From Methanosarcinaceae archaeon (GTDB lineage: Archaea; Halobacteriota; Methanosarcinia; Methanosarcinales; Methanosarcinaceae), in contig JAIPUR010000024.1 in the NCBI GenBank assembly GCA_020055655.1, positions 1 through 40,193 on the forward strand: 40,193 bases of DNA. The letters run 5' to 3'. Position numbers and translations under genes: made by a program. The notes under the pieces are model-generated. The model ran no database searches. It was not told the DNA's origin and worked only from the letters and a program-made list of their open reading frames with translations. This document shows, piece by piece, positions 8,588 through 19,395 of this stretch; within the stretch, counting starts at the first letter, position 1; each line of letters begins with the position of its first letter.

Positions 8588-10198
8588 TTATCTGCTTCTA
8601 AGGATCTTGTCAATCCTCAAAACGCTGTTTGTAGCCTCTGTTGCTGCTATTAGTGAAAGTTTCTTGATGCTTGCGGAATCATACACAGGTGGCTTATTTG
8701 GTATTACCTCCCTTAACATATCGATTCTGGCATCTATTCCTTTATTATAGTACCCGGACATGCTTGACATTGAATCTATGACATTCATACCCATATTACG
8801 TGCAAGCGTCCTTGGAATCTCTTCCAGTGCATCTGCATATGCAAAGACCGCAAGTTGCTCTTTCCCAGCAACCGTAGAAGCATATTTTCTAAGCATTTGA
8901 GCGATCTCAAATTCTATCCAGCCACCGCCTTTCACGACTACCGGATTCTTCACCATAAAAGCAGCATTGTTAAGAGCATCATCAACTGCTTCTTCAACTT
9001 TATCCAGAGCATACCTGAATGGTTCCCATATCACAATGGATGACATCGGCTGATCCCTGACAGATATGGTGAGGAAATATTCATCACACCTCTTGTCCAC
9101 CTCGACCTCATCAGCATCACCAAGATCACTGGGCAGGATCTCGTCTTTGATGGAAAGGATTGAAGCACCAGTTGCCTTTGCGATCTTTTGAAGGTCCTTC
9201 ATCTGGAGCTTTCTGTAGAGCAGAATATCATTCTTTGCAAGAGTACCTTCAATGGAAGGATCGACCTTGCCTTCGCAGAGAACCAGATCTGCACCCGAAT
9301 CTACAATTTTATTTGCAAGTTCTTTCAGGTGCCTTATTTGGGAATTCTCAAATATCATTGAACCTTCGACGCCATCAAGATGAATATTATGCTGGGAATT
9401 AATGATCTTGCTCTCAAATTTTGTATTATAATTCAGGATAAGGACCTTTGCTCCCCTAAAATGAGTTGTTACACTTGTGTTATCAGGTGCTTCATCAAGT
9501 ACAATACCTGAAACACAGTTCATATCAGGTCCACCTACCTTCTTTATGACCTTTACATAATCATTGAGATCAACATAACTGTCCTCGCCCAGTTCTTTGA
9601 GATTCTCTACGGTCTTGAGCACAGCATCTGTGATCATCTTTGCCTGCTCAGCTTCCACACCCTTGCTTAAGCTGGCATTTTCGATCACTGAATGCATATC
9701 TTCATGTGAACGGCCATTAATCGTTGTAAATTCAAGAATGTCATAAGCTTTGTTAAGAGCCAGTTGATAGCCTCTTATAATAGTTGAAGGATGTATTCCT
9801 TCCCTTGCAAGTTTGGAAGCATTTTCAATAAGAGATGATGCAAAAAGAACAGCTCCCTTTGTACCATCACCACAGGTTTTATCCATTGACATTGCCAGAC
9901 TTTTCATGGAAGTGACTACAGGATGAAGTACATCTACCTCTTTGATGATGGTCTTCCCGTCGTTTGTCATGATAATATCGCCTGATGGATTTGCTATCAG
10001 TTTGTTCAGACCACGTGGACCAAAAGAAGATGATATCAGGTCTTTTACATCAGCTGAAACGGATTCCATGTGATGGATCAGATCATCGCCCTTAACATCC
10101 TCATCTATCCCGATCCTTGCCCTTACACTTGCCTTAAGAGCTTCCATGCTCTCAAGTTCATTACCAGGAGCTGGAGCTTGATCTACCATGGAGCTCAT
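8588..10198 (-). CDS. Divergent group II chaperonin (thermosome-like) subunit
   Basis: A 536-residue Cpn60/TCP-1 protein. The equatorial nucleotide loops are present but altered: TNDGKTIIKE is near canonical, GDGTT has become GDGTK, and the C-terminal equatorial loop reads VVKGGGWIEFEIA where VVPGGGAxExEIA is usual. The C-terminus ends in DKILRSR, without the Gly/Met tail of ordinary thermosomes. This fits a specialised paralogue and not the housekeeping thermosome. Its ATG overlaps the stop of the upstream gene (ATGA), so it is coupled to the hydantoinase-like gene and belongs to the methyltransferase operon. A role in folding or assembling the corrinoid methyltransferase is inference from position. 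Confidence 0.88.
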   Translation of the reverse strand: MSSMVDQAPAPGNELESMEALKASVRARIGIDEDVKGDDLIHHMESVSADVKDLISSSFGPRGLNKLIANPSGDIIMTNDGKTIIKEVDVLHPVVTSMKSLAMSMDKTCGDGTKGAVLFASSLIENASKLAREGIHPSTIIRGYQLALNKAYDILEFTTINGRSHEDMHSVIENASLSKGVEAEQAKMITDAVLKTVENLKELGEDSYVDLNDYVKVIKKVGGPDMNCVSGIVLDEAPDNTSVTTHFRGAKVLILNYNTKFESKIINSQHNIHLDGVEGSMIFENSQIRHLKELANKIVDSGADLVLCEGKVDPSIEGTLAKNDILLYRKLQMKDLQKIAKATGASILSIKDEILPSDLGDADEVEVDKRCDEYFLTISVRDQPMSSIVIWEPFRYALDKVEEAVDDALNNAAFMVKNPVVVKGGGWIEFEIAQMLRKYASTVAGKEQLAVFAYADALEEIPRTLARNMGMNVIDSMSSMSGYYNKGIDARIDMLREVIPNKPPVYDSASIKKLSLIAATEATNSVLRIDKILRSR

Positions 10199-12129
10199 GC
10201 CCCTCTCCTTGGACTGCCCACTGCAAGCCCTTCAATTTTTGTTTCAAGGGGAAGGGTTCCCATAGAACCAACATCATTACGTTTTAGTTCGAATTTTACT
10301 TTATCCATGTTCAGACCGTAACCTTTCATATACTCTGAAACCGATTCTTCCACAAATTTGAGAGCATATTCAATAGCAGACTTATAATCTTCAAAAAGTA
10401 TTCTTCCTTTCTCCGAGAACAATGCATATTGAGTACTGCCAAAGGAAGAAGGACGGATCAGTATCTCTGTCCTGTAAATAACATCACCAACTAGAGCCCC
10501 AACTGCATTTCCAACCTGGTGGAAATCAGGTACAATTATATCACCATCTATCGTTTTCTCAAGATCGGATTTATAGGCAGCTACCGGAGCACCCACAAGC
10601 ACGACAGGTGACTTGAGCCTGAATGTCATATTATCAGAGCAAGCCATTATCTTTTCAATGTCCTTTGTCTTAACATCATCTGCAAAATATGATATTAGGT
10701 CAAGGGCCAGATTGTCCACTAGCCCTTTCTTAACATTGGCACAGAATTGTTCTTTGCTGATACCCAGGTAACCGGAAAGGATCTTTGCACCTATGTCAGA
10801 TGCCTCTCCATTCCACCTGTCATATTCCCCAAGAACATGAAGTGCATCAGTTGGTGTGAATCCTATCTGCTGAATGCATCTTTTCTTCACAAGTGCCTGC
10901 AATATATGTGTGAACATCAAAGGATGGGTTTCTGTCTTCTTTGCAATATCCATAATAGATGTAGGCTCCTCACCCACAGCATCCAGTATCTCCATTTCCT
11001 GTCCATCGAGATCTGCCATGGCTCTGCAATGAGATCTTGAACCTTTGCATATGAAAAATGTCGTTGATTGCAGGGATTCTGTCATTATACGTGTGGAATA
11101 CTTATCCGAGCTTTCCAGTTCATCTATTACAGAAGGATATTCACTTGCAGCAAGACAAAGGGGAATTACTCTGTTCGGGCCAATATACATCTTGTTCTGT
11201 ACCCATACATGACTGTCTCCACCCATTGCCGATGTTCTCATTTTAATGGCTTTCACCATTGTTTTCCAGCCACCGACTATGGCACCCTGTTCATCTATCT
11301 GTGGGACAGCATCACGGATCATTGCAATATCTGTACTTGTACCGCCAACATCCATTGCAATACATTCTTCAAGTGAAGTTAGGTGACCGGCGCCAACAAG
11401 ACTGGCAGCTGGTCCTGAAAATATTGATTCAACGGGTTTTTCCACCGCTTCTTCTATCTTAACAAGTGAACCATCACACTTCATCATCATAAGTGTGGAA
11501 TCTATTCCAATATCTTTCATTACCGAAAGAATAGACTTAATAAAATCATCCACTACAGGTATAAGCTGAGCATTAAGCAAGGCAGTGATAGCCCTTTCTG
11601 AAGCTCCAAGGCTCATGGACAACTCATGTCCACATACTATTGGTAGATCGGTTAGTTTGCGCACATACTCTTTTACGCGATTTTCATGATCAGGATTTCT
11701 CACACCGAAGTATGAAGAAATTGCAAATGAAGCTACTTTCTTTTTGTTCTCAAGAATAAACTCCCTGAGCTCTTCCAGACCTTCAAGGGGAGCTATTTCA
11801 TTTCCATCGGAATCATGCCCTCCGGCTATGGACAGTACATGATCACTTGGAACTTTATTATTAATTGAATAACCAATGAGAATAAGACCGGCAGGATAAC
11901 CCTTACCCTCAAGGGTAGTATTGGTTGCCAGTGTTGTGGAAACAGAAGTAAAATTGATATCTTTTAAGTATTTTGGATCAAGTCCGTTGAGAGTATTTCG
12001 AATGCCTGTGACCAGATCGGGATATGTTGTCAATGATTTGTAAGAATTTACCAAAGATCCATCAGAGAGATCCATTAGTACTGCATCTGTATATGTGCCG
12101 CCTGTATCAATACCAAGTCCAAGTTTCAT
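10195..12129 (-). CDS. Hydantoinase/oxoprolinase (HyuA)-family protein
   Basis: A 644-residue ASKHA ATPase-like protein. The N-terminal phosphate-1 loop is GLGIDTGGTYTDAVLMDL, followed by STTLATNTTLEGKG. The phosphate-2 loop is AMDVGGTSTDIAMI, and SGPAASLVGA lies between, as in HyuA. A C-terminal extension (about 360-640) contains a winged-helix-like stretch and LVGAPVAAY. Classical HyuA hydrolyses hydantoins or 5-oxoproline with HyuB, but no hyuB is nearby, so that reaction is doubtful here. Its position between the corrinoid/methyltransferase fusion and the chaperonin suggests an ATP-using helper of corrinoid methyl transfer; this is inference. AGGTGAT precedes the ATG. Confidence 0.8.
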   Translation of the reverse strand: MKLGLGIDTGGTYTDAVLMDLSDGSLVNSYKSLTTYPDLVTGIRNTLNGLDPKYLKDINFTSVSTTLATNTTLEGKGYPAGLILIGYSINNKVPSDHVLSIAGGHDSDGNEIAPLEGLEELREFILENKKKVASFAISSYFGVRNPDHENRVKEYVRKLTDLPIVCGHELSMSLGASERAITALLNAQLIPVVDDFIKSILSVMKDIGIDSTLMMMKCDGSLVKIEEAVEKPVESIFSGPAASLVGAGHLTSLEECIAMDVGGTSTDIAMIRDAVPQIDEQGAIVGGWKTMVKAIKMRTSAMGGDSHVWVQNKMYIGPNRVIPLCLAASEYPSVIDELESSDKYSTRIMTESLQSTTFFICKGSRSHCRAMADLDGQEMEILDAVGEEPTSIMDIAKKTETHPLMFTHILQALVKKRCIQQIGFTPTDALHVLGEYDRWNGEASDIGAKILSGYLGISKEQFCANVKKGLVDNLALDLISYFADDVKTKDIEKIMACSDNMTFRLKSPVVLVGAPVAAYKSDLEKTIDGDIIVPDFHQVGNAVGALVGDVIYRTEILIRPSSFGSTQYALFSEKGRILFEDYKSAIEYALKFVEESVSEYMKGYGLNMDKVKFELKRNDVGSMGTLPLETKIEGLAVGSPRRGA

Positions 12130-14240: not shown

Positions 14241-14490
14241 GACGCATTAACGTAGAATCGATAAGATATAACATAAACGGAATAATAAAATAAAGTCTAA
14301 TGATGGTGTTAACATGGCACTCAGGGGTTAATCATATTATTTAATGGGCGGAGTTTAATCTAATTATAGAGGTCAATTACAAAAATATGATTAATCTAGT
14401 TAATGGTATTAATTGAATTAATAGAATGCCTAATTCATTATCTAATCAATAGTTAATATAACTTCTTACAACAATTGTATTGCTAATTTT
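14241..14490 (-). promoter_or_regulatory. Promoter/leader of the fused methyltransferase, copy A of a duplicated region
   Basis: This is the core of the 473-nt gap between the methyltransferase and its regulator. On the minus strand a TATA box TTATGTTATA (about 14267-14276) would start transcription some 55 nt before the ATG at 14182. Upstream lie GTTAAC at 14308-14313, TTAATGGTATTAA at 14400-14412 and a run of ATTAAT boxes to about 14450. The same elements in the same order and at nearly the same spacing occur at 18148-18405 before the kinase gene. A small palindrome (CTACTT/AAGTAG at 14634-14646) follows the regulator stop. I see no gene in the rest of the gap. Confidence 0.7.
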
Positions 14491-14655
14491 CCTCAAAAGC
14501 TTAGCAATCTACCAATATTTGAATGCATAATACAATATTAAATAGCAGTTTGATCAAATAAGTAAATCATTCGTTTGAATGTTCAGTAAGATCCGTCATT
14601 CATACAATAAAAATAAATATTGATAAAGAGGAGCTACTTTAAGTAGATAAATAAA

Positions 14656-15441
14656 TCAGATACCATCCACATACAATGAGGTTGCCTTAAAGTAATTAAA
14701 AAGGTCTTTGCCCCATTTAAGAGCACTTTCCTCATAAGCCATCATTGCATGGTTGTGGTACATCCCATTTTTGAAGAAGAGTGAAAATGATAAAAATTCA
14801 TCAGTTGCAATACAGGAAGCAAGATTGATATTATCATGATACACATAAAGCTTGACATTGCGCATACTGATAAACTCTTCCAATATAGTTCGATACTCGT
14901 CCCTCATTCTTTCAAAAACATGTTCTGTCACAATGAGTTCCATATGAACGCCATTCTTTGCATATTCAAGATATTTAGAAGTGTAAGCGGGACTAAAATA
15001 TGATGATACTTCCATTATGCTTTTTGCTTCTGCAAGATTATCTTCCAGATCCTTTGGTAGTTCATACATACGATTTAAGTCAGCTTCCACGAGTTTGCAA
15101 GGACCAATCTCATCTATCCTGTCTTGCAACTGCGAAGGAATTGAGCTGAATTTATGGTTATCCCAGTATTCCCGATTATCTGAATAAACGTGTAAAGTAT
15201 TAATAAGAGGTAACATTTTTCTGGCGATTACCTCGCCAAAGTTTGAAAGGAAATAATGATCGTTTGCATAAATAACCAAACCATGGTCAACAAGTATCTT
15301 TATCTGTGTCATCATTGCACTTGAAGTTACACTGAGGGTCTGCTTGATATCATCAAGACTCATTGGCCCATTTATTAATAAAAGAAGCAGATCCTTTCTT
15401 TTATCTGAAAGAAAAATCGTACCCAATAAAGCCAATTCCAT
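14656..15441 (-). CDS. Msr-type transcription regulator (ArsR-like HTH plus DUF1724)
   Basis: A 261-residue regulator. Residues about 10-75 form a winged helix (KRKDLLLLLINGPMSLDDI, then a recognition-helix region SSAMMTQIKILVDHGL and a wing YANDHYFLS). Residues about 120-255 match the DUF1724/FilR1-like domain of methanogenesis regulators, with the usual DRIDEIG, SYFSPAYTSKYLEYAKNG and LFFKNGMY segments. Msr proteins of Methanosarcina activate neighbouring methyl-sulfide methyltransferase genes, and the position here, directly before the fused methyltransferase, is the same. It starts 39 nt after the kinase stop, so kinase and regulator are one transcript. AGGTGA precedes the ATG by 8 nt. 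The likely target is the 14241-14490 region. Confidence 0.85.
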   Translation of the reverse strand: MELALLGTIFLSDKRKDLLLLLINGPMSLDDIKQTLSVTSSAMMTQIKILVDHGLVIYANDHYFLSNFGEVIARKMLPLINTLHVYSDNREYWDNHKFSSIPSQLQDRIDEIGPCKLVEADLNRMYELPKDLEDNLAEAKSIMEVSSYFSPAYTSKYLEYAKNGVHMELIVTEHVFERMRDEYRTILEEFISMRNVKLYVYHDNINLASCIATDEFLSFSLFFKNGMYHNHAMMAYEESALKWGKDLFNYFKATSLYVDGI

Positions 15442-15480
15442 TTTTCATTCACCTTGGTATTTAATTGATCAATAAATTTC

Positions 15481-18009
15481 TTAATCATTCCATAAGGGAA
15501 GCTTAATGTAAATTGTTGTTCCTTCACCTAATTCACTTTCAACCCATATTTCACCTTCATGAGCATCAATTGTATCTTTACACATTTGAAGTCCTGATTC
15601 AATTGCCCAGTACATATGACTTGAATTCTCATCCAACTGACAAAAGTTATGAAATAGGTGGGGTATCAATTCTTTTTGTATGCCAGGTCCCATGTCAGAT
15701 ATCTCAGTGTGTAGATAATTATCATCCTCGTACATATTTATAGCCAAAGAACCACCCTCTGGGGTAAAGTTTATAGCATTATCAATTAGATTAAGATAAA
15801 CATCAGTCAGTTTCTCTTTGTCTCCTTTCACAAAAGAAAGATTACGAGGGATGTTCTTTTTAAGATCCAGTTGCTTTTCATCGATCAATAGTATCAGATT
15901 TAGCAATACATCGGATATCAATGTGTAAAGATTAAGCTCTTCAAATGAGTATTTTATCTCACCCAAGTCTTTCAAATTTCGGTAAAATGCAGTATCAGAT
16001 AGTCTTTTGATTCTCTCAGAATTACGAAGCAGAGCCAACATTGCTACTTTCTGAGAATCATTTATTAAATTAAGAGCTTCGCCACCAAAAGAATTACATT
16101 CTGAACATATAGAATCATCATCTACGGGAAAATTACTTTTAATGAAATCTTCCTTCATACTATTGATAGACCTTAATTCTTTGTTAGATTTTGAAAGTTC
16201 TGAAGAATACTTATTGAAAGCATCTAATGTTTGTCTTTTCTTAATCAATTTCCACATTGCCTGCACAAGGAGGGTAAGTTGAAGTACATCAGATTCATCA
16301 TAGTCTTCTTCTTTGTTACCTACACCTACCACAGCAACAATATGCTCACCATCAAACAAGGGAACATTCAAGTGTCGTGTTAACTGTACATGGCCACTTG
16401 GATAACCTTTTTTCATAGAGGATTCCATACTATAATCGTTGGTGATGATAGGTTTACGCTGTCTAACAGCTTCTCCCCAAAGGCCGGTGGTAGCTATAGG
16501 ATATGTAAAGATCTTGTCTTTGATTTCACACTCTTTCATGGTAAATTTTGACCACGAATGCATAATAAGAACAGTTTCATCTGCATTTGTAAATGCAAGA
16601 TAACCTAATTTGCTACCAGTAAGTCTTACTGCCTCTTCGCGGGCAAAATCAGTGATATCGTTTAAAGAAGTGCCTGTCATATCATTTAGCTTGACCAATG
16701 CCTCTAACCTTGAAGCATTAAGCAGTTTTGATTTTTCAGCTTTCTTCCTTTCAGTAATGTCACGAGCAACTGACAGAACTGCTTTTTTACCATTATATTC
16801 AATAAGCTTAGCATTAACTTCAAGTGGTATAACAGAGCCATCTTTTCGAATAGCTGCTGACTCATAGGTAGCTTTTCCATTTTTAACTATACGTCTAATG
16901 AAATGCGTGGCATGCTCCACATATTTTGAGGGAACCAGGTTTTTTGGTGATAAGCTCAAAATATATTCTTTGGAATATCCAAGGGTATCAACAGCAACCT
17001 GATTTACATCTATTAAAGTACCGTTCAGTTTGCTGAGAAAAATAAGATCGTTGATGCTATTGAATATGATCTTGAATTTGTGTTCAGATTCACGAAAGCT
17101 CTCATTAATTATTCTGTTTTCAACCTCAATGGCTGCGATATCTGCATTTGCTTTGAGATAGTGCATGCATGCACTTTTCGGAGACCTTGGATTTTCAAAG
17201 TACATAGCAAAGACACCAAGAATGTCTCCATTTGATGCCACCATCGGTTCAGTCCAGCATGCACGAATGCCAATTTTCTTTGAAAAAACTCTGTCCTTTG
17301 TCCAGAAAGGATATTTAGCCACATCTTCAATTATGACCCGCCTTCCAAAGCATACAGATCTAGCACAACAACCCATGTTATGTTTTACCTCTGCTCCTTC
17401 AAGATATTCCCTGAATAAAGCAGGCAAGTTGGGAGCTACAACGTGAAATATCCTCTTTTTGCTCTTGTCCAGCAAAATCACGGCACATTTCAGATCAGAT
17501 TTGATCATTTCAGCGTTCGTTACAAGAAGGGAGAGAATGTTCTCAAGAGACGCATCCTTGCCACTGACATTTGTATTTGCACCTTGATCAGTTACCTTGC
17601 GGCACTTTTTTTCAGTAATGTCACTGATGATACCGTCAATATAGGTATCACCATTTTCGTCACGTCTTATTTGTGACTTTTCTTCAACATGGCGTATCTC
17701 ACCAAATTTGGTGATAATTCTATACTGCTGTTCAAATGCAGTAATTACAGGATTTAGGTACTTAAAAGCATTAGAAATTATCTTGAAATCATCAGGATGT
17801 ACAATTTCGCCAAAGTTCATCTTTCTAGAAGTAAAATCTTCAGGATGATAGCCAAATTGTTTGATGTTTGCATTTAAATGCACAACTGGTAGATCATCCT
17901 CAAGTTTTCGGGAAATTATAATAAACGAACTTTCTTTAATAATTTTTAAATCAAGTTCTGTATCTGATTGTTTAATCATATTTTTGACCAGATTACCACA
18001 GATCCTCAT
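15481..18009 (-). CDS. PAS-GAF-PAS-GAF sensor kinase, MsmS-like, without a canonical H-box
   Basis: A protein of about 842 residues, numbered here from the TTG at 18012 as residue 1. Order: PAS1 (25-137, ending GIISDITEKK), GAF1 (155-305, with NMGCCARSVCFG), PAS2 (312-425, ending VARDITERKK), GAF2 (435-595), a helical dimerisation region (600-700) and a HATPase (715-840). The ATPase has N-box NLIDNAINF and G1 box DMGPGI. The region where F-xx-SHELRTP should be reads DFIKSNFPVDDDS, with no histidine, and the G2 box is degenerate (AIESGLQM). Domain order and location match MsmS of M. acetivorans, a haem-binding kinase beside an mts gene whose haem is attached through a cysteine in the second GAF; here GAF2 has one cysteine, C495. 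ATG 18009 follows an in-frame TTG; ATG 17979 is another possible start. No membrane segments. Confidence 0.82.
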   Translation of the reverse strand: MRICGNLVKNMIKQSDTELDLKIIKESSFIIISRKLEDDLPVVHLNANIKQFGYHPEDFTSRKMNFGEIVHPDDFKIISNAFKYLNPVITAFEQQYRIITKFGEIRHVEEKSQIRRDENGDTYIDGIISDITEKKCRKVTDQGANTNVSGKDASLENILSLLVTNAEMIKSDLKCAVILLDKSKKRIFHVVAPNLPALFREYLEGAEVKHNMGCCARSVCFGRRVIIEDVAKYPFWTKDRVFSKKIGIRACWTEPMVASNGDILGVFAMYFENPRSPKSACMHYLKANADIAAIEVENRIINESFRESEHKFKIIFNSINDLIFLSKLNGTLIDVNQVAVDTLGYSKEYILSLSPKNLVPSKYVEHATHFIRRIVKNGKATYESAAIRKDGSVIPLEVNAKLIEYNGKKAVLSVARDITERKKAEKSKLLNASRLEALVKLNDMTGTSLNDITDFAREEAVRLTGSKLGYLAFTNADETVLIMHSWSKFTMKECEIKDKIFTYPIATTGLWGEAVRQRKPIITNDYSMESSMKKGYPSGHVQLTRHLNVPLFDGEHIVAVVGVGNKEEDYDESDVLQLTLLVQAMWKLIKKRQTLDAFNKYSSELSKSNKELRSINSMKEDFIKSNFPVDDDSICSECNSFGGEALNLINDSQKVAMLALLRNSERIKRLSDTAFYRNLKDLGEIKYSFEELNLYTLISDVLLNLILLIDEKQLDLKKNIPRNLSFVKGDKEKLTDVYLNLIDNAINFTPEGGSLAINMYEDDNYLHTEISDMGPGIQKELIPHLFHNFCQLDENSSHMYWAIESGLQMCKDTIDAHEGEIWVESELGEGTTIYIKLPLWND

Positions 18010-18147
18010 CAATTATGGTTCTACAACAATGACGCTGCTACTAGTTGCAGCTTTTTCTAATTGATATGATCGGCTAGATCCATTGCAATTCTTTCTTTCT
18101 AAATAATATGTACTCGTCAATGATTACATGTACTTTATGGAAACACC

Positions 18148-18405
18148 GATGCACAACGTGGTACGAATAATATATAACATAAATGGAATAATAAATTGGG
18201 GATTGTTAACATCATTATAGATGAACACATGGTTAAATGGCTTAATATATTAGCTGATAACAGCCTGATTAAGCGCATTAATTAAAAAAATGCATCTAAT
18301 CCAATTAATGGCATTAACACCATTAAGGTTTACATTATCTATAAATTATATATTCAATACTAAAATTCATTTCTTATAATAATGAGCATTGTAAAAATTA
18401 TTATT
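18148..18405 (-). promoter_or_regulatory. Promoter/leader of the kinase-regulator unit, copy B of a duplicated region
   Basis: Minus-strand TATA box TTATGTTATATATTATTCG (about 18163-18181) lies some 160 nt before the kinase start. GTTAAC at 18205-18210, TTAATGGCATTAA at 18305-18317 and CATTATCTA at 18333-18341 repeat the elements of 14241-14490; the offsets from the TATA element differ by 1 to 9 nt. The 627-nt gap 18010-18636 otherwise holds an untranslated leader (18010-18147) and, from about 18500, the cobA promoter. Confidence 0.7.
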
Positions 18406-18553
18406 AAGCAGATCAAACAGGCCATTCAAGTAAAGTCTGTGTCAATTTGAAACTGAATATATGTGCTTTCTTGTTCTTTTTTGCATTTGAATCATCCATA
18501 AACCAATGGTTTTATCTAGTTTCAACTCTGCTATTTCCATTGTCTCAAATTCC

Positions 18554-18563
18554 CTTTAAAAAC
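18554..18563 (+). promoter_or_regulatory. Candidate TATA box of cobA
   Basis: CTTTAAAAAC lies about 80 nt upstream of the ATG at 18637. A TTTATG-rich stretch just after it is an alternative. The ribosome site is weak (AGGAT about 10 nt upstream). Confidence 0.35.
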
Positions 18564-18636
18564 ATTTATGTTTATGAATAGATATTATGATCAGTTCATT
18601 AGAATCATAAATTTGACCAAATAGGATTTTGCAAAT

Positions 18637-19395
18637 ATGACTCAATATGGAAAAGTATATCTGGTTGGTTCAGGACCCGGGGACCCGGAACTTCTGACCG
18701 TTAAGGCTCGAAGGTTAATTGACACTGCTGATGTGGTAGTTTTCGATCAGCTTCCAGGTAAAGCAATTCTTGAATCTATCCCAGCTGAAACTGAAAAGAT
18801 AGATGCTGGTAAGCATGCTGGTGAGCACACTCTTAAACAGCATGAGATAAATGCCGTTATTGTTGAGAAAGCAAAAGAAGGAAAGTCTGTAGTTCGCTTA
18901 AAGGGTGGCGATCCATATATGTTCGGACGTGGTGGCGAAGAGGCTCAGGAACTTATTAAAGATGGAATTCAGTTTGAAGTAGTACCTGGCATAACATCTG
19001 CTGTATCTGTTCCTGCATACGCTGGAATTCCTGTGACTCACAGAGATCATGCATCAATGGTGACTTTCATCACCGGTCATGAGGACCCAACAAAAGAAGA
19101 AAGTGCACTTGATTGGGAGGCACTGGCAGCTTTCAATGGTACTATTGTAATTTTCATGGGTGTGAAAATGCTGGGCAGAAATGCTGGCGAACTAATTAAG
19201 AATGGTAAAGATCCTAATACGCCAGTTGCACTCATAGAGAGAGGTACACGTCCTGATCAGAGAGTTACTGTTGGAACACTTGAGAATATCGAAGCACTTT
19301 CTAAAGAAAGAGCTGTCAAAGCTCCTGCAATAACCATAATTGGCGATGTTGTAAAACTTCACGATGAACTTGGTGAACAGCTTATTTCTTACTAA
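18637..19395 (+). CDS. cobA: Uroporphyrinogen-III C-methyltransferase
   Basis: A 252-residue SAM-dependent methyltransferase that methylates uroporphyrinogen III at C2 and C7 to give precorrin-2, the branch point to cobalamin, siroheme, haem (Ahb route) and F430. Clear family signatures: LVGSGPGDPELLTVKA near the N-terminus, VVRLKGGDPYMFGRGGEE (about 87-104), FEVVPGITSA and ALIERGTRPDQR. Length is that of a stand-alone SUMT, without the CysG dehydrogenase/chelatase part. It is 12 nt before hemD and evidently in one operon with it. Confidence 0.95.
   Translation: MTQYGKVYLVGSGPGDPELLTVKARRLIDTADVVVFDQLPGKAILESIPAETEKIDAGKHAGEHTLKQHEINAVIVEKAKEGKSVVRLKGGDPYMFGRGGEEAQELIKDGIQFEVVPGITSAVSVPAYAGIPVTHRDHASMVTFITGHEDPTKEESALDWEALAAFNGTIVIFMGVKMLGRNAGELIKNGKDPNTPVALIERGTRPDQRVTVGTLENIEALSKERAVKAPAITIIGDVVKLHDELGEQLISY

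Follow-up and report, generated by a model that had tools for sequence, protein, structure and literature searches.

Msr-type regulators choose which methylated compound a methanogen uses. One of them, MsrF, has been reported to increase the expression of mtsD (PMC3960522), and the kinase RdmS is given as MA0863 (PMC11784639). In the MsrF-RdmS-MtsD locus of Methanosarcina acetivorans (L064), the kinase, regulator and mtsD genes follow one another in the same order as in the locus studied here, with identities of 48%, 55% and 74% to our kinase, regulator and methyltransferase, respectively. Its mtsD promoter shares the TATA core found at our locus and carries a box, TTAAC-N3-GTTAA, at −27. Unlike its counterpart described below, the upstream region of the M. 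acetivorans kinase gene carries neither a box nor such a TATA core, and the kinase gene itself contains an in-frame TAG that ours lacks.

In the FilI/FilR1 system of Methanosaeta harundinacea, the PF08350-type regulator also binds methanogenesis promoters, and FilR1 is reported to bind its own promoter and the promoter of its kinase operon (PMC3991700). FilI, a histidine kinase, transfers phosphate to FilR, whereas the kinase of our locus has no H-box; the accessible part of the same paper contains no operator sequence for FilR1 (PMC3991700). The MsrC-mtsF pair places a regulator of the same family beside a fused corrinoid methyltransferase gene, as in our locus (PMC11619418), and this locus (L194) is paralogous, our methyltransferase being 55% and our regulator 40% identical to its products. 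In the literature searched, mostly outside subscription journals and accessible in part, no binding site for Msr-type regulators was found.

We analyzed a stretch of 40,193 nucleotides (hereafter, the window), which is contig C16 of a 2.48 Mb genome of a Methanosarcinaceae archaeon whose named near relatives are Methanolobus. Two upstream regions, both read on the minus strand, were compared: region A (14241–14490), before the methyltransferase gene, and region B (18148–18405), before the kinase-regulator genes.

Identity of the kinase-regulator-methyltransferase trio

On the minus strand, the genes run in the order kinase, regulator, methyltransferase (Table 1). The methyltransferase is a fusion of B12-binding domains with a methyltransferase of the URO-D type (PF02607, PF02310, PF01208). 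The regulator matched the FilR1 middle domain PF08350 at E 4e-36, and its winged HTH is represented by HTH model matches scoring below the gathering score. The kinase contains PAS, GAF and HATPase domains, and no histidine was found in residues 591–720, where the H-box would be. None of the cysteines listed in the kinase was assigned to haem-linked redox sensing. Translation of the kinase likely starts at the ATG at 17979 rather than at the TTG at 18012. The gap between the kinase and regulator genes measures 39 bp, and both genes are probably carried on one transcript.

Table 1. Coordinates of the genes of the trio and of the sequence elements in regions A and B
Feature	Position	Strand	Basis
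mtsD-type fused corrinoid protein / methyltransferase, 630 aa	12290–14182	−	domains and identity to relatives
MsrF-type regulator, winged HTH and FilR1 middle domain, 261 aa	14656–15441	−	domains and orthologue comparison
RdmS/MsmS-type PAS-GAF sensor kinase without H-box, 832 aa	15481–17979	−	domains and residue check
A: TATA core block, 27/29 with B; TATA box TTATGTTATAT at 14276–14266; expected start ~14245	14261–14289	−	
A: GTTAAC half-site, ~9 nt farther from TATA than that of B	14308–14313	−	
A: 105-nt upstream stretch, 68% to B, operators inside	14371–14475	−	
A: three overlapping TTAAY-N3-RTTAA candidate operators (14391, 14400, 14409), 9-bp steps	14391–14421	−	
B: TATA core block as in A; TATA box TTATGTTATAT at 18182–18172; expected start ~18151	18167–18195	−	
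B: match to profile R1 made from relatives' mtsD promoters alone	18164–18225	−	best in genome
B: two overlapping TTAAY-N3-RTTAA candidate operators (18305, 18314)	18305–18326	−	

We compared the three proteins with the mts loci of genome G074, which we take to be that of M. acetivorans. With the mtsD, mtsF and mtsH loci of G074 assigned partly from position and neighbours, the identities at the mtsD, mtsH and mtsF positions were 74%, 65% and 55% for the methyltransferase and 55%, 52% and 40% for the regulator; for the kinase they were 48% (mtsD) and 46% (mtsH). Because the identities are highest at the mtsD locus, we named the trio RdmS-MsrF-MtsD type, and the methyltransferase is most likely of the MtsD type, a predicted methyl-sulfide methyltransferase. 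An MsrC-mtsF identity for the regulator and methyltransferase pair was rejected on the same figures (74% to mtsD against 55% to mtsF). As in the window, mtsD is preceded by a homologue of the regulator in 39 of 40 relatives' loci, and the recognition helix of the regulator (TSSAMMTQIKIL in the window) is nearly invariant across MsrF orthologues and somewhat different in the regulator paralogues of C43-type clusters.

The same genome contains a second kinase-regulator-mtsD cluster (G000 contig C46:73391–78649; L033), and contig C46 ends within its mtsD. Since mtsD is 95% identical to the window copy over 515 aa, far above the values for the regulator (78%) and kinase (79%), the comparison suggests gene conversion of mtsD between the two clusters. 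Between mtsD and ramA, the window encodes a divergent thermosome-like protein (8588–10198), which scores under every curated NCBIfam cut-off, together with a hydantoinase-like protein (10195–12129).

An in-frame TAG occupies the same PAS-domain site (...CT*EYRVLTKS) in 18 of 18 loci outside Methanolobus (L050–L065, L067 and L068) in which the kinase gene lies directly before the msrF orthologue; in the kinases of Methanolobus and of the window, a sense codon (Q, R or another) fills this site. The site is a candidate pyrrolysine position in the RdmS-type sensor kinase. In 2013, an in-frame UAG was predicted for a sensory histidine kinase, perhaps the same gene, in three archaea (PMC3639795).

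Likeness of regions A and B

The initial annotation had listed four anchors in the same order in the two regions, and all four are present in both, with plus-strand starts (A/B) at 14266/18172 for ATATAACATAAA, 14308/18205 for GTTAAC, 14400/18305 for TTAATGGyATTAA and 14436/18333 for CATTATCTA. Its spacings of 41/32 and 133/132 nt become 42/33 and 134/133 nt when measured start to start from the TATA element; between the two regions, GTTAAC and CATTATCTA are each shifted by ~9 nt. The strongest block, absent from that annotation, surrounds the TATA box (27 of 29 positions identical, E = 1e-8), and the second stretch of likeness, 105 nt long and 68% identical, gave E = 7e-5.

Shuffling bore out the likeness: the observed local score was reached by 0 of 1000 dinucleotide shuffles under strict or loose scoring, and once the 29-mer was left out, by 4/1000 (strict) and 0/1000 (loose). 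The score of A against B was 48, compared with at most 30 for A or B against 14 other intergenic regions of the window longer than 120 bp. Within the promoter class A and B are also the best-scoring pair, as A scored at most 36 and B at most 44 against relatives' mtsD promoters; the promoter cores of L072 and L073, with 44 and 39 against B, come near the A-B score. When up to three mismatches were allowed, the 29-mer occurred at two places in the genome, A and B, and nowhere in 26 other Methanolobus genomes. Further copies searched for across the genome were thus confined to A and B for the 29-mer, with the tandem arrays described below also found at the second mtsD copy.

A chance likeness of A/T-rich sequence, with no function behind it, would draw on the base composition of both regions and on the single box described below, which is no commoner genome-wide than its reversed control. 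We regard it as vanishingly improbable: spacing and sequence are conserved in relatives, and B was found by a profile blind to it. At the sequence level chance is refuted by the E values and by the 0/1000 shuffles. The comparison supports, at the level of sequence, the assignment of A and B to one promoter type.

In the alignment, the likeness stops ~20–25 nt past the TATA box, near the expected start points, which were placed from the spacing of 19–22 nt reported for Methanolobus psychrophilus (PMC5378194). From these start points, leaders of ~63 nt (A) and ~171 nt (B) are expected. The "promoter/leader" proposed as common to both regions is therefore shared as a promoter with upstream operators, and the leader label is unsupported because the likeness ends where it does. 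The term "duplicated control region" likewise holds for one promoter type in A and B, with true duplication and separate assembly as competing readings of the sequences.

Separate assembly would mean that A and B each acquired operators and a TATA element without any duplication of DNA. The overall likeness is indeed modest and lies mostly in the operators and the core, and the ~9-nt shifts of GTTAAC and CATTATCTA point the same way, as does the promoter of sister ramA-kinase-msrF units, which is related yet scores 17–25 against A or B, not above background. Against this stand the 29-nt block and its flank beside the TATA box, which were found at A and B only, and the outcome of masking: once TTAA and the TATA core are masked out, the A-B likeness is weaker yet persists, being reached in 5/500 (strict) and 1/500 (loose) shuffles, compared with 263/500 and 98/500 for the masked comparison of B with C46. 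On balance, we consider separate assembly unlikely.

A candidate operator in mtsD promoters

The relatives' sample comprised 40 loci with the methyltransferase (L034–L073), from which L066 (without the regulator, start not projected) and L071 (an mtsH-type paralogue) were left out, giving 38 promoters. These contain a TATA box resembling TTATGTTATAT, often preceded by TTAATAAATTACC, and upstream of it a 13-bp inverted repeat, TTAAY-N3-RTTAA. We counted 65 exact boxes in the 38 promoters, from which the pattern had itself been drawn by eye, compared with a shuffle mean of 0.375 (maximum 3, 200 shuffles). At least one exact box was present in 34 of the 38, and none was found in the remaining four. 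The ATTAA boxes put forward as candidate binding sites are accordingly the best candidates available, and TTAAY-N3-RTTAA is likely the operator, judging by its distribution in sequence.

Counts taken outside the source promoters came from genome-wide single-box and tandem scans and from the remainder of 40 loci (the 38 relatives, C46 and the window). In these 40 loci, 71 boxes lie within 420 bp before mtsD (16.8 kb) compared with 7 in the other 322 kb, and two of the 7 are those in B. Relative to the TATA box, and with A, B and the C46 copy included, 20 boxes lie at −27, 5 at −63, 13 at −99/−100, 8 at −135 to −137 and 10 at −144 to −146. Operators thus recur at about −27, −63, −100 and −136, in steps of 36–37 bp or ~3.5 helical turns, with 9-bp tandem steps within arrays.

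The window contains five exact boxes, all in A (3) and B (2) and arranged in 9-bp tandem arrays, which sit 127–145 nt (A) and 135–144 nt (B) upstream of the TATA box. The single box occurs at 30 places in the genome compared with 49 for the reversed pattern, so that it shows no enrichment and, being rarer than its control, says little on its own. Tandem arrays were found at three places only, namely A, B and the promoter of the second mtsD copy on C46, and the reversed tandem control gave none in this genome. Among 26 other Methanolobus genomes, a single tandem match was found in each of six, in four cases immediately ahead of mtsD, and the reversed control gave three matches. The same candidate operator is present before the presumed target gene, mtsD, and before the regulator operon.

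Origin of region B and proposed regulation

A sequence-only profile, R1, was built from the 38 relatives' mtsD promoters with this genome excluded and searched against the whole genome. Its top match was B (19.6 bits, E 0.0015), followed at 19.5 bits by a promoter on C43 that precedes a URO-D methyltransferase gene and at 15.8 bits by the core of the C46 mtsD promoter. Region A was absent from the genome matches (8.1 bits unfiltered, covering the TATA box only) because its GTTAAC lies ~9 nt further out. As R1 ranks B first and omits A, B looks closer than A to the mtsD promoter of the family.

At kinase genes, this architecture is rare. None of 16 regions of 330 bp before the kinase (C46 and 15 other Methanolobus loci, of which two belong to the same genome) contained an exact box; the kinase promoters in these regions differ in look from B, and that of C46 has a plain TATA-like element. 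B is thus special to the window copy, and a general rule by which all kinase-regulator units carry a B-type promoter was rejected. Because mtsD genes have this architecture throughout the family and kinase genes seldom do, we favour, on comparative grounds, the view that B is an mtsD promoter copied to the front of the kinase gene.

The same outcome could have arisen if B were a relic of a lost mtsD copy, that is, if a tandem duplication of kinase, regulator, promoter and mtsD had been followed by a deletion joining the first promoter to the second kinase. The two cluster copies in the genome (the window and L033) show that duplication did occur, but no mtsD or regulator coding remnant was detected in 18013–18640 (best E 0.55), and we consider this origin improbable. 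It concerns origin only, the present wiring being identical either way.

The operator seems, from its placement in other loci, to have become linked to a kinase-regulator unit more than once, since boxes occur on the ramA side in four sister loci and before the kinase in two others. The four sister Methanolobus loci (L038, L040, L047 and L189) have ramA ahead of the kinase and carry a single exact box ~180–206 nt upstream of ramA, followed downstream by TTATTACTTGAAGTTATTATTTATA and accompanied by a similar TATA region. L069 and L070 have a box ~125–155 nt ahead of the kinase frame. No ramA-side box was found in L044 and L046, the other two of the six sister loci with the same kinase type.

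The four sister loci share a further feature, a conserved stretch of ~190–220 nt between an msrF paralogue and ramA (L047:610–840, L038:645–837, L189:2755–2975, L040:7839–7619), which is immediately preceded by an mtsD-like promoter core. The stretch has a multi-stem fold (consensus −45 kcal/mol; both sides changed at 4 of 46 pairs in 3 sequences), had no Rfam match in the loci searched (L038, L047 and L189), and is a candidate small RNA in which CTACCTCCA could pair with ribosome binding sites. R1 matches at about −6050 in L038, L047 and L189 were rejected as ramA promoters, as they lie ~450 nt further upstream, before this RNA-like stretch; near the ramA promoters themselves, R1 gave a weak match in L038 (1079–1112, E 0.36).

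Taken as copies of one mtsD-type promoter, A and B would probably both serve the MsrF-type regulator, which would activate mtsD and its own operon through the arrays. In such a scheme the product of the middle gene would bind the operator arrays in A and B; once bound, it would activate the methyl-sulfide methyltransferase gene (mtsD) and its own kinase-regulator operon, which would have gained its mtsD-type promoter by copying or capture. This would create a positive feedback, with the H-box-less sensor kinase as its gate, in which regulator output rises when the target enzyme is needed. That the window regulator is the binder, that activation is the direction and that B derives from A is what we infer. 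The initial annotation had an Msr-type regulator driving both units: the neighbouring regulator is indeed the best candidate binder, because a homologue lies upstream of mtsD in nearly all loci, its helix is nearly invariant and MsrF is reported to enhance mtsD, whereas a promoter of this type on the regulator's own unit fails as a general arrangement.

If the proposed wiring is correct, a one-way activator has turned into a self-reinforcing switch for methyl-sulfide methanogenesis in this species, and the kinase promoter shows a circuit gaining feedback through a copy of its target's promoter. More tentatively, the tandem array repeating every 9 bp, placed at about −27, −63, −100 and −136, might be the operator code of MsrF-type regulators, and the promoter copy might have made the switch self-reinforcing and possibly bistable. 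The proposed regulon, with its candidate operator, is new; the control circuit is of a known kind. A concrete 13-bp candidate operator with conserved spacing makes the regulon testable and other genomes scannable.

The binder of A and B could instead be another regulator of the same family, such as the C46 copy or a C43 paralogue, rather than the local one. The genome encodes at least three such regulators (those of the window, of C46, 78% identical, and of C43, 36% identical), and the C46 mtsD promoter bears the same arrays, so that the regulators may cross-act. We hold this to be decidedly improbable, given that 39 of the 40 relatives' loci have a window-regulator homologue ahead of mtsD and that MsrF is reported to act on mtsD (PMC3960522); moreover, promoters near the C43 paralogue have a variant core and no tandem arrays.

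The C43-type cluster (L141–L150), present in this and other Methanolobus genomes, is a second methyltransferase cluster with msrF paralogues, ramA and MtbA, and it also includes a separate corrinoid protein, an FMN/OYE-type oxidoreductase, a radical SAM protein and an AMP ligase. The variant core, TTGATTAATTACC-n5-TTATTATATAT, precedes some of its genes.
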